Origin: Rhynchonema sp. JSB1_4
Taxonomy: Eukaryota > Nematoda > Chromadorea > Monhysterida > Xyalidae
Direction: 5' to 3'
Assembly: GCA_030248065.1 (NCBI GenBank)
Contig: JASAMV010006679.1
Location: 1-64,000 of the forward strand
DNA: 64,000 nt
The translations under genes and the position numbers were made by a program. Under the pieces are notes generated by a model that was given only the letters and a program-made list of their open reading frames with translations, made no database searches and had not been told where the DNA came from. Shown here piece by piece: positions 1,021 through 60,800 of this stretch (its first letter is position 1; each line of letters starts with the position of its first letter).

Positions 1021-1239
1021 AACTAGAAACTGCACTGCGTGCGCATAACAAAAAGCTAAAAATGTGTCGATTCCAGGCTGGTGGTGCTGCCGCCGTTGCG
1101 GTTTCATAGGGTTGATGTGTGAAACATCACTGTTTTGACGATCATTGATCATTCTGATTTTATTGAGCGCAACACAGTACAAATGAATGTACGATTGTGA
1201 TTTGATAAGGGATCTTCCAAGTCACGCATCAACCTTCAG

Positions 1240-2952
1240 CCAGTACAACACCTGGGAGCCGGCATCGTCGCTCGCCCATCTGACTGACATGGTGAAAAAG
1301 TTCAAAGCCGCCTGGATCGCAAAGTACGGCCAGCACGTGTATGAACACGATGATCGGTCGCAGGGCCCGTGCGCGATGGAGCAGATCGATAAACGACCGG
1401 TCAAGGTTCGTGACGGTTGTGTTGTTGGAAAACTAACCAGTGTACCGCCGCACCTTACTTGGTTGCATGCAGCCCGCAATTGTCGACGGTCAGAAATCCG
1501 CAAGTTCTTTAGCTGAAAAGTTCACGTCGTGGAAGACCGCAAGTTGATGTTCAAGTATGATTCGCATATCCAAATTGATCATTTCAGTTGGCCTCGAATT
1601 CCCTCGAAACCTAAGCGTAGACAGGCATTCAATTTAATTTTTCAGTAATTTGCGAAATACAACAGTTACACAATGCTCTCGCATCCCTTCAGATGATAAA
1701 AGTCTACAGCAACTTCAAATCAGAAGAAAGCGACGGCGGCGATACGAGTTCGCCGTCGCCGAAAAAGCCGAAAATCGTCAAGAAGCACAAATCGAGCGCG
1801 AGCACCACCGGTGAACAACAACAACAGAAAGGGGAGAAGGCGAAGGAGAAAAATAACAAAGATCAGACATCGGATGCCCGTCAGAAACAGGTTGGTCTTT
1901 TAATGCGACACCATATCATCGCTTGTGATCCGCGGCCGGGGCAGCGCAGGCCGTTTTTGGGAGGCAGCGTACGGTAAATTTAGGCGCCTCCGACTATATA
2001 GATTGGGTCAGGACTCGGACTTGTTTGCACCCGCTGGTTTACCCCATTGCAGCTGTTTTGTCCGTGACAACATTTCGTATTCGATTTCTCTTGGCTGTTA
2101 TGTGAGATTCCATGGGAAAGGGTTGATTGATTGATTATTTGCCAACGCTCGGCCGTCGCGGTCTCATTGTAGACTGAAGATGTCCGACAGATCTTCTGCG
2201 CATTTGATCGGGTTACGCCACAGATCGATTGGGCTCGTGGATACGGGTCGGCTTTTGCAACGAAACAGATGTTCGACCGTGTCAGGCTCGGTGCAGCCTC
2301 GAGGGCACACGTTTTGTATGTTTGGGTCGATGCGGTTGCGATATGAGTTCAGCATGCGGCAGTGCCCACTGCGTAATGGGAAAGGGTCGCAAATCCTGCA
2401 CATTGTCACATACACGAAAATCTAACAATTATATGCCAGGACAACGCCGTCATATCGAATGACGTGAACAACAACACACAAAGTAGCAGCAGTGCGAATT
2501 CGAGCACCGATCAAGACGACTACCGAACCGGCTTCGAACTCGGCATGCGACCCAAACGTGTCTGTGGCATCACGGACACCATGATGGAAGTGTCCGGCGA
2601 ACTGTATTACTTGGTGGAATGGTAAGCGAATTAGGCTGTTGGAAAATTCTAGGTGCAAATGTACCTGCCATTTCAATATTTCGGTGCACTGCAATTCAAA
2701 ATATTTAGGTGCAGCTTGCACCCAGAAAATCACGCACGGCACCGGCATTTCTAAAACTGCCTCACACAATTTTCCATTCCATTTGCATAAACCGTCAACT
2801 CAACAATACTGATGTGATTCAGGGAAAACGCGCCAGCCGACCATCAAGCCGACCTGATCGCGAGCTCGCGCGTCGCCAAGAAATGCCCGGAATTGGCCTT
2901 GAAGTACTTGGAGTCGAAAATTCAGTTTCTGGAACCGAAACCGAAAAAATAA
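1240..2952 (+). CDS. HP1-type chromobox protein (5'-partial)
   Basis: Four phase-compatible exons are visible: about 1240-1405, 1693-1890, 2440-2621 and 2823-2952 (stop TAA at 2950-2952). The first carries the C-terminal part of a chromodomain (QYNTWEPASSL, then a basic helix). The second is a lysine/serine-rich hinge (SPKKPKIVKKHK, poly-Q). The last two make a chromo shadow domain (YRTGFELGMRPKRVCGITD, then YYLVEW joined to ENAPADHQADLI and KCPELALKYLESKIQFLEP). HP1 proteins bind methylated H3K9 through the chromodomain and dimerise through the shadow domain to form heterochromatin; that role is inferred from the family. The N-terminal half of the chromodomain and the start codon are not in the window. 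The intron at 1891-2439 has taken in a LINE fragment. The gene is convergent with ECT2. Confidence 0.88.
2125..2416 (-). mobile_element. non-LTR retrotransposon (LINE) 3'-end fragment
   Basis: On the minus strand, inside an HP1 intron, an 83-residue frame (2415-2164) reads RSGHCRMLNSYRNRI, then CPRGCTEPDTVEHLFRC. This is the His/Cys pattern (C-x3-C-x6-H-x4-C) found at the C-terminus of many LINE ORF2 proteins, after the RT/RNase H region. The sequence then runs into a short TCAA-type tandem tail (2127-2140), typical of a LINE 3' end. No RT catalytic motif is present, so this is a dead 5'-truncated copy. Confidence 0.7.
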
Positions 2953-57886: not shown

Positions 57887-60800
57887 TCAGGGCACGGCGC
57901 AGGTACACGATCCTCCACACGCTGACAGACATGGCCCGTCGGTGCACAGGGCTCTATCGGTGGCGGCACAGGTGGCTGAAACATCAGTTTTACGATTGCC
58001 ACGCACTTTGGTTGAGTGTCTTGTTATCATGCCCATTGTATGACGTCACTAAAACACAGTAAATTGACAAAAACGTACCCAAATCGAACGACGTGCTGCA
58101 ACATTCTTCTGAACAGGTGCCAGGCAGCGTCGTGTCCTTGCTACAGTCCGTGTCGGTGTTGCAAGCACTGCCGTCGAGACAAGCTAGAACAATTGGAGTA
58201 CCCCCACAATTTTGGTCATTATTGTAGAACGATCAATAAAATTATGGAAAATCAGCGGTAAAGGTCTATTTATACTTCTGACTTCCGGGAAGAGAAGAAA
58301 CCGGGGAAGACCCCCCCACGAGGAGCGCCGGGGCGGGGAGTCTTCTCCCCTCCCCCCCCCCCCCCCCCCCCCCCCCCCCCCTCTTCTCCCCCCCTCCGCC
58401 CCCCCGGCGCCACCACCCCCCCCCGCTAATGGTCTGGTCGTCAAACTCAAGTGGTCAACTCAAACAGCTCTAAATGAGCGCGAGACATTAAAGGCCTAAC
58501 TATGTATACTTCGTTCTCTCAGAGAACAAAGAACAAATTCTCGCGCGCTGATTGGCTGTTGAACATACGTGGACCAATCAGCGCGCGAGAATTTGTTCTT
58601 TGTACTCTGAGAGAACGAAGTATAGATATGTAGGCCTTAACGGTACATGGGAGGGAGATGACGACAAGATGACAGTTCACGATCTGAGTTGATGACAGTA
58701 TACGCCAAAGTGGCTAAACGCACAGTAACACTTGTTCGCGTACTCCTGCTCCAGCGTCCGCCATGCGACTTCGCGCGACTCGCATAGCCTGAATTAGCAA
58801 GGCAATAAAACTGCAGGTCCTGTTTTCACAAAAGAAGAACGATAAACGCACGAAAAGTCGGTGTATTCGCAGGCGCATTTGAAAACGATCTGATCGGACG
58901 TTGATGCGGGCGTGGTACGGTAGATCAGTCGACTGCACGTCACATTGGACAGAACGGCGTTGGACTGAAAAAAAATGATGCGGTGTATCCCTCTTCTCGA
59001 TTACAGCTTACAACAAAATGGACTTCTTCATTATGTGCAACCGTTACCAACCGGCACGTTGACACAATCGGCCGTTGAATGCGCCTCGCAGTACTTCTGA
59101 CAATAGTAGTACAACGCGATCATTGGCTGATCTCGACCCAGCTGTGCCGTGCTGCATTGACCACCGTAGTTGATGCCGGCTGTAATGGGTTACGGTAGGT
59201 TATGGTACATGTTGAAAAGCTTGAAGTTTATTGTTGTATGAAATGTTGGTTATTATGATGAAAAGAGCACAAGGAAGCAAGAAGAACAAGACCGGCAATC
59301 CGGAACAGCATCAAGCGTGAGCAGTCGGTTACAACGTCGTCAGCAATCAGAATATCGCGAAATCGTTAAATTTTAAAATTAGTCATACTCTAAGTTAGAC
59401 TTGGAGACTCGTATTTGATGCTCTCCTCGATCACCCAGCCTTGCAAGCAGTTTGTTATAAGGGCATGTATGAAAGTGAAGATCAGGCCAAAAAACACAAG
59501 CAAAAGGAGGTTGCATGCATGTCCCGGATTGCAAGTCCCGTTCTGAGCAGGGATTGAAGCCATACTTGTTTGACGTTTCACGCGTCGATTGCGTTTCTCA
59601 AAACTTTTGGCGCTGCCGCCGGCCTGTGCTGCTTCGTTACGATTTTCGAGCGCTTTTGCGTTCGCACCCTTGTTATCGAGACCAGTGGCCTTGTTTGTGC
59701 CACTGCCTGATGAACTGCTTTGGAAGAAACTGCTCTCGAACCCGCCAAGAGAAGGCGGCGCATCGATTTGCAGTTCAGTGTCAGTTTGTTGGTCACTTGT
59801 TGGTGTTTCTGTGTTGGTTGAAACGCGATGGTGGCTAGGTTTGCATTCCGTTATAAAAGGTAGAAGGAAACATGCACAGTTAGGGCACCCGAAGCAGTAT
59901 TGCGCCAGTATTACAGGTTGAAACGTCACACAGGGCGTTTTGCCCAGGTTACCGAAATCGTTTTTTCAGCGGCGTTAGCAACCTATTTTGTGGTGCACCG
60001 GAAAAGAACATGCAAAATTGCCTTGAGCAAATTTCAATTAGCGAAATTCAGCGTTTTTTGTGATATGAAACTGATCGGATCACCTGGTTGTGCCAAGTCG
60101 TTCAAGCAGTGCGACGGCAACATCGACGCTGAATACTTGTCAACCTGCTTTGTCCACGTGTCGCTGGCGAAATACGGCGCTTGACAGTCCGCATTCGATG
60201 TGACGCAGTAGTCTGGAGCACAGATTTGGATTATAATTATTCGAAAATGATATAATTCGACTTCAACTTCAAACTAACTCTGACAACTGGCTTGAAACGC
60301 GTTCCACAGCTCGAGGAACGTCAGAGTGGCGGCAGTGCACCTGGATATATAATTTCGCTAAAGTTTGTCGATTTTCAGACATGTTTACCACCAAATTCGG
60401 TATTCTCAAAACTCACGCCGCCTCTCTATCGTAATGACAAATGCAGCTGAACGTCACGTCACTCATGCTCGGCGTTGCGCCGGAACCAAATGCAATTTGA
60501 GGTTGACCGCACTCGATCTATAAAAGGATAGGCGTTTTCAGAATTATTTCAATTTTTGAAACATCACAACGCCCAACTGTTTTGAGAGAGGATGTGCGCT
60601 GGGACGAACACGTGTTGATGCATTCGGACCTGGAAAACAGCACGGTTATCGCTTATCGTTGGTGATCGAATAGGTCGATCACAACAATCGGATGGTCTAT
60701 TAGCGAGGTGATCAAGCCAAGATATTAAAAACGTCATTAGTTAGATAAAAGTCAGTTTCTAAATACAGAAGACCTGCATTTCCACTGCATCGCATACGCA

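Follow-up and report, generated by a model that had tools for sequence, protein, structure and literature searches.

The 64,000-nucleotide stretch of Rhynchonema sp. JSB1_4 DNA analysed here (contig JASAMV010006679.1, positions 1 to 64,000; the window) raises the question of why one 10-mer, TGATGTTTCA, should stand at 21 scattered places within it. The first-pass annotation had suggested, from a shared TGTTTCA alone, a likeness to the Ruby motif, the promoter core of PIWI-interacting RNA (piRNA) genes in Caenorhabditis elegans. We find that the word is very probably the core of this nematode's small nuclear RNA (snRNA) promoters, a conclusion that is well supported, and that its dispersed copies, each resembling half of a proximal sequence element (PSE), are best read as Ruby-type piRNA promoters, which we regard as probable.

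Abundance and strictness of the 10-mer

An exact search recovers the 21 copies previously counted, on both strands as had been claimed (11 on the minus and 10 on the plus strand), each within 4 bases of where it had been placed. The chance figure of 0.12 offered with that count is a little low, since 100 dinucleotide shuffles of the window give a mean of 0.40 copies of TGATGTTTCA and a largest value of 3, while the strong enrichment itself stands; with up to one mismatch allowed the window holds 41 places, against 9.5 expected. The copies are listed here, all being exact matches, with domain searches or alignment added where a domain or a duplication is named.

1120..1129, minus strand: putative half-PSE copy TGATGTTTCA
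14487..14496, minus strand: putative half-PSE copy
19466..19475, minus strand: putative half-PSE copy
19798..19807, minus strand: putative half-PSE copy, in a probable short intron (gtacgt...ttttcag, by eye)
21313..21322, plus strand: putative half-PSE copy
22735..22744, plus strand: copy within an open frame directly upstream of the DAO-domain open frame, probably coding (domain search)
23381..23390, plus strand: putative half-PSE copy in the late part of the DAO-domain open frame, past the domain match (domain search)
24734..24743, minus strand: putative half-PSE copy
27487..27496, plus strand: putative half-PSE copy
32442..32451, plus strand: copy lying in a segmental duplication whose other copy is at 35720 (alignment, 98.2 % identity across 493 bp)
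35720..35729, plus strand: copy, duplicate of 32442 (alignment)
38302..38311, minus strand: putative half-PSE copy
41639..41648, minus strand: putative half-PSE copy
43157..43166, minus strand: putative half-PSE copy
46809..46818, minus strand: putative half-PSE copy, back to back with 46909
46909..46918, plus strand: putative half-PSE copy, back to back with 46809
48835..48844, plus strand: putative half-PSE copy
49951..49960, plus strand: putative half-PSE copy
56787..56796, plus strand: putative half-PSE copy
57977..57986, minus strand: putative half-PSE copy
60557..60566, minus strand: putative half-PSE copy

The statement that most copies are intronic or intergenic was checked in part, and the copy at 22735 proves to lie inside an open frame of an oxidoreductase-like gene. 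Open frames of at least 100 amino acids run through five of the 21 sites and through 51 % of random places, a comparison that we do not use since the motif itself stops two of the six frames.

The assembly containing the window comprises 5,747 contigs and 203,913,205 bases. It has 37,556 copies of TGATGTTTCA, or one per 5.4 kb (18,829 on the forward and 18,727 on the reverse strand), against 345 for the reversed word (172 and 173). A genome-wide count against a control had been set beforehand as the check on the first-pass annotation, and the outcome, about 109 times the control, lies far from expectation. The 271 kb of sampled DNA contain 64 copies against 1.8 by a third-order estimate; this sample is enriched for the motif, as stretches L001-L004 were chosen for holding TGATGTTTCA and other stretches come from contigs on the hit list, and the genome-wide count is the unbiased figure. 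The density of copies is more uneven between contigs than a Poisson process would give (p 4.7e-4, from 19 contigs with a listed site, site-free contigs being dropped). No enrichment is seen for the C. elegans Ruby core CTGTTTCA, with 18 occurrences in 259 kb, and other NNGTTTCA words occur 6 to 36 times except ATGTTTCA, with 119. Among the literature matches listed for TGATGTTTCA on either strand, none is on nematode piRNA by its title.

With one mismatch allowed, the assembly contains 92,371 places and thus 54,815 one-mismatch forms, a moderate excess over the approximately 30,000 expected when Markov estimates from the sample are scaled up; the reversed control gives 15,893 places, of which 345 are exact and 15,548 carry one mismatch. 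The excess in the sample is uneven, being carried by TAATGTTTCA (9 found, 1.1 expected), TGATGTTGCA (8, 1.2) and AGATGTTTCA (5, 1.1), with most other forms near expectation and TGGTGTTTCA and TGATATTTCA seen once each. Changes at the eighth base are enriched among these dispersed forms (A 3, C 3 and G 8, against about one each).

These figures bear on the possibility that the copies are neutral or selfish, either fragments of a repeat or a word spread by a mutational or conversion process, and play no part in a promoter. Simple birth and decay would, we reason, leave an excess of one-mismatch forms of about the size found (approximately 0.7 to 1 per exact copy), and some copies are carried in duplicated elements; plain decay, however, would not produce so uneven a set of mismatch types as that between TAATGTTTCA or TGATGTTGCA and TGGTGTTTCA or TGATATTTCA, almost all sites read have flanks unrelated to one another, and the word coincides with the snRNA promoter core described below. 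We consider this explanation highly unlikely.

The flanks were compared by aligning 110 sites with distinct flanks, left after removal of shared near flanks, of which two are U1 promoters and the other 108 make up the dispersed set. No repeat is shared across the aligned sites, there being only a few duplicates, and the survival of 110 sites upholds the earlier view that the word is not a transposon piece. The accompanying claim that flanks are unrelated except for the pair at 32441/35719 is right for nearly all sites; a few further duplications are found, among them an inverted-repeat element family. Upstream of the 108 dispersed sites the only signal is at -7 to -1 (G, K, C, T, K, G, S), with 0.83 bits against 0.14 at random (z 15.6); downstream, +10 to +13 gives a z of 5.0, mostly from C at +10, and +14 to +22 a doubtful trace (z 2.0). 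The intervals -85 to -50, -16 to -8, +23 to +40 and +38 to +50 (z 0.5 for the last) are all at background. The word TTCGTC occurs at +10 to +35 of eight sites, where 1.1 are expected, but with many words tested it is not claimed as a partner motif.

The duplicated copies found, at 81-100 % overall identity, retain the exact core in all but one case, which reads TGACGTTTCA. On whether the word arose by insertion or by substitution, the core is kept in duplicates with no 10-base gap, and no homologous empty site occurs in the sampled DNA. An artefact of assembly or library preparation, such as linker or adapter residue, might be suspected from a fixed word with random flanks everywhere, and yet the word has one defined place in snRNA promoters, lies in frame in probable coding DNA and remains intact in diverged duplicates (81-90 % identity), so that we find this scarcely credible.

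Several of the duplications have features of their own. An inverted-repeat element family (L023:2241-3532, L075 and L076) has arms that are 80-92 % identical; of the four arms read, three carry the motif and the remaining one TGACGTTTCA. The segmental duplication in the window spans 32192-35962, with approximately 3.3 kb between the copies and 98.2 % identity over 493 bp around the motif. Back-to-back or facing motif pairs some 80-370 bases apart are found at 46809/46909 of the window and in L024, C9, C19 and C15, and the C19 pair sits in a 99.4 % identical inverted repeat (L094/L095).

The 10-mer in small nuclear RNA promoters

Genes for U1, U2, U4, U5 and U6 were found by covariance model search of the assembly, and 29 of their promoters were compared: 9 of 10 matches for U1, 8 of 9 for U2, all three for U4, 5 of 8 for U5 and 4 of 9 for U6, where matches are mostly fragments and four were chosen for sharing a gene start and having related upstream DNA. 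Within two mismatches of TGATGTTTCA there is a sequence at -44 to -48 or at -56 in 25 of the 29, and within one mismatch in 14; by chance, a 21-position zone would contain one with a probability of 0.020 for up to two mismatches and 0.0046 for up to one. The zone was picked after the hits were seen, and paralogues cannot be counted as independent; U1, U2, U4 and U5, on the other hand, represent four families with no relation to one another.

The agreement is closest in U4, where TGATGTTTCA stands exactly at -47 in two of the three genes and TGATGTTCCA, with one mismatch, at -47 in the third. Seven of the nine U1 promoters come within one mismatch at -44/-45, five with TTATGTTTCA and two with TGATGTTTCA itself (at -45), and all five U5 promoters come within two at -45/-46 (one with TTATGTTTCA, two with TGATGTTACA and the other two with two-mismatch forms). 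For U2 the number is six of eight within two mismatches, with TTATGTTTCA in L043 and TCATGTTTTA in L044 at -47 and TGATGTGACA in four genes at -48, the remaining two having three mismatches at these positions, and the four U6 promoters all have TGATGCTACA at -56. Changes of the eighth base to A or C occur in U4 and U5 promoters. Six rows beyond the 29 were also considered, the U6-like L033-L037 and the U2-like L046: L033 (a U6 fragment above the cut-off) and L046 are at least four mismatches away, L034 has GGATGTTTCG at -50 and L035 has CGATGTTTCT at -64 (two mismatches each), L037 is three mismatches away and L036 has no upstream DNA. The divergent U1 genes L055 and L052 have exact TGATGTTTCA at -45, and between the core and the start of L055 runs a TATA-like stretch (ggtataaagg), which is unusual for an snRNA gene transcribed by RNA polymerase II.

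Many snRNA promoters have a second element downstream of the core, for which the consensus CGATAGACTACCCC was taken from U4 and U5 and a cut-off of at most four mismatches was set. It is present in 18 of the 29 promoters (U1 5/9, U2 5/8, U5 5/5, U4 3/3, U6 0/4) and at none of the 108 dispersed sites, the latter in accord with chance expectation. Since it is usual in snRNA promoters and missing from all 108 dispersed sites, the dispersed word corresponds to a single part of the element usually found in snRNA promoters. That part is the one distal to the transcription start site, where SNAPc is expected to bind. A core-like sequence also occurs with no second element in U2 L043-L045, U1 L053 and U1 L055, the TATA-like stretch of L055 standing in its place. 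The U2 genes fall into two classes, L038-L042 with cores TGATGTGACA/TGACGTGACA at -48 and the second element, and L043-L045 with TTATGTTTCA-like cores at -47 and no second element.

Across the genome the snRNA variant TTATGTTTCA stays close to background (2,024 against 1,728), so that the dispersed set is a class of its own and is not made up of any PSE-like word. A strict DNA-binding protein of another kind, a transcription factor or architectural protein, could also account for such a class, the likeness to the PSE being then a coincidence or a matter of shared ancestry with no shared use. In its favour, changing the second base to T, as in most U1 genes and one U5 gene, abolishes nearly all enrichment, and the second element is missing throughout the dispersed set. 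It would have to explain, however, why two U4 genes and two U1 genes have the identical word at the same position and U5 genes nearly so; that four of 13 snRNA flanks, scored for the flank preferences of the dispersed sites, rank in the top 2.5 % of random ones also speaks against it, if weakly, as that of U1_L052 is below the median. Such a protein seems to us distinctly unlikely.

Argonautes and the candidate piRNA promoters

The assembly has 57 matches to Col_cuticle_N, the cuticle-collagen N-terminal domain, which we take to be a marker of nematodes, and 54 exon-level matches to PF02171. By eye, the latter include AGO-type pieces (C3198, C802, C4344, C3982, C2124, C3630, C2817 and C2030) and WAGO-like pieces (C971, C4966 and C4479), with C5352 left unclassified; the one AGO-type piece searched, C3198, has human Argonaute-2 as its best match. 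Two exons of C1663, which read VYRDGVGEGQ and QGTVTPVSYNIL...YKLCHLYYNWQGT, score 38 and 59 bits with Piwi against 23 and 24 with human Argonautes, C3368 has an exon near-identical to one of these, and C4595 matches almost the same profile ranges. Judged by these exons, a PIWI-clade Argonaute is encoded. The three PIWI-type loci (C1663, C3368 and C4595) are possibly haplotypes or uncollapsed copies, or else recent duplicates.

Beltran et al. (2019; PMC6436959, cited like the other sources below from the part available to us) describe the Ruby motif as derived from a SNAPc site and piRNA loci as either clustered or dispersed. Given that origin, the identity of TGATGTTTCA with an snRNA promoter core supports the piRNA lead, and two features of Ruby-type promoters are found here: a nematode with a PIWI-clade Argonaute, and thousands of autonomous GTTTC-core copies related to the SNAPc motif. 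Occurrence on both strands and uneven contig densities would also agree with piRNA loci of the dispersed kind described there. Read in this way, the dispersed copies would extend the known link between snRNA and piRNA promoters (PMC6436959, in part) to a longer and stricter core at one copy per 5.4 kb. In the mechanism that we propose, a dispersed half-PSE would recruit SNAPc and RNA polymerase II, and a short capped transcript would start approximately 45-47 bases downstream, counted from the first base of the motif. Loss of two bases by trimming would yield a 5'-U piRNA to be loaded on PIWI, as at the Ruby-motif loci of plectids and of clade V nematodes. Lack of the second element would set piRNA promoters apart from most snRNA promoters.

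The original lead is thus partly supported: it has gained a nematode source, PIWI and the same 10-mer at a fixed distance from snRNA starts, while CTGTTTCA is not enriched and the 5'-U signal predicted 35-45 bases downstream is not visible in the 110-site profile. By the snRNA geometry found here, transcripts would be expected to begin near +45 and to have their 5' T near +47, and the failure of such a signal to appear is one of several points that weigh against piRNA promoters. At +38 to +50 of the 110 sites T makes up 388 of 1,430 letters (27.1 %, against a background of 27.4 %), and YRNT ends within that interval 101 times, which equals the mean over +20 to +74; an initiator enforced at a nearly fixed distance in most sites should have shown. 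A loose start that uses chance YRNTs (about one per 13 bases) would hide both signals. The second element is missing (more than four mismatches) in 11 of the 29 snRNA promoters, including L055 with its exact core, U1 L050 and L054 have no core, and U2 L038 and L045 are three mismatches off. TAATGTTTCA is enriched among dispersed copies and is in no snRNA promoter read, while TTATGTTTCA is the reverse. Some copies are in coding frames (22735 and, by eye, L009:6192), and many AGO and WAGO-like genes are present besides PIWI.

Part of this evidence would also suit dispersed half-PSEs that bind SNAPc or a paralogue for other ends, be it transcription of other short RNAs by RNA polymerase II, or a role in chromatin, in pausing or as a domain mark. 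The identity with the PSE is independent of PIWI, the 5'-U initiator signal is not seen downstream, and the several WAGO-like and AGO genes could employ other short RNAs. Against this, PIWI is present, and the genome-wide role that we found described for GTTTC-type half-PSEs in nematodes, in the available part of PMC6436959, is piRNA transcription. We regard such other uses as unlikely, if worth keeping in mind, and retain piRNA promoters as the better account of the dispersed copies.

Comparison with known systems and lineage

A close parallel to the dispersed copies is the Ruby motif, found at type I piRNA (21U-RNA) genes of clade V nematodes such as Caenorhabditis, which shares with them a short GTTTC core, thousands of autonomous sites, an origin in the SNAPc site and the keeping of one half of it (PMC6436959, in part). 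The core is CTGTTTCA in C. elegans and TGATGTTTCA here; there is no visible initiator signal here and SL1 was not found. The 37,556 motif copies may be set beside more than 15,000 piRNA loci in C. elegans (PMC7917550) and 25,883 in C. briggsae (PMC9683057), both as given in the accessible portions of those papers, although loci and copies are different measures.

The plectids Plectus sambesii and P. murrayi resemble the present case in having PIWI and nearly identical piRNA and snRNA motifs with a GTTTC core, the P. sambesii loci being non-clustered (PMC6436959, in part). Their piRNA motif almost always has an additional 5' motif, according to the same part of that source, whereas a weak 7-base flank is all that lies upstream here, the comparison being with the text description only. 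For P. murrayi 3,082 motif sites are reported in the part of the work available, as against the 37,556 copies here. The dispersed motif here is moreover single, longer and stricter, and the second element of the snRNA promoters lies downstream of the GTTTC core. The P. murrayi genome is given as 225.7 Mb with 43.6 % GC (PMC8022722, in part); the sampled DNA here has 45.2 %, and a plectid affinity is conceivable even though the motif departs from the description given for plectids. Compared with the nematode snRNA PSE, the same 10-mer or a near variant is found at -44 to -48 of U1, U2, U4 and U5 genes here, and the dispersed sites differ in having no downstream CGATAGACTACCCC-like element.

Beltran et al. 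(2019; PMC6436959) report Piwi only from clade V and two Plectus species, and in the scoring of Sarkies et al. (2015; PMC4323106) PIWI is lacking from clades I and II, so far as the available parts of these papers go. A literature search for 'piwi' in Enoplea and Dorylaimia found nothing among the matches listed, which is no proof of nothing in print. The SL1 22-mer was not found in the assembly, and an SL1 covariance model gave no match, with its search controls silent as well; the contigs seen all exceed 10 kb, and short repeat-rich contigs may be missing from the assembly. SL1 not being found, the lineage may lie outside those reported to keep Piwi. It is conceivable, and we put it forward tentatively as something that we doubt more than we believe, that a lineage belonging neither to clade V nor to the plectids, with no SL1 and probably early-branching, retains PIWI and transcribes about 37,000 scattered piRNA genes from promoters that are an exact half of its snRNA promoter.

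If this were true, Ruby-type piRNA transcription would have its place close to the base of the nematode tree, contrary to the reports that clades I and II have no Piwi, and if the species does lie outside the Piwi-keeping lineages the history of piRNA loss in nematodes would have to be redrawn. The snRNA origin of nematode piRNA promoters has rested on comparison of motifs. Ten bases that are identical between the dispersed word and some snRNA promoters of one genome, with the second element as the main difference, would make the choice between snRNA and piRNA promoters directly testable, and the strictness of the motif would allow candidate loci to be called from sequence alone.

As to the rest of the window, Rfam (at the gathering threshold) and tRNA scans gave no match in it. 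Several exons at 8473-10806 make up an aminopeptidase gene of the M1 family (Peptidase_M1_N, Peptidase_M1 and ERAP1_C, two of the three matches being below the curated cut-off). A (CA)n/(GT)n array of approximately 400 bases occupies 39660-40100 and is visible as long CVCV/HTHT open frames.

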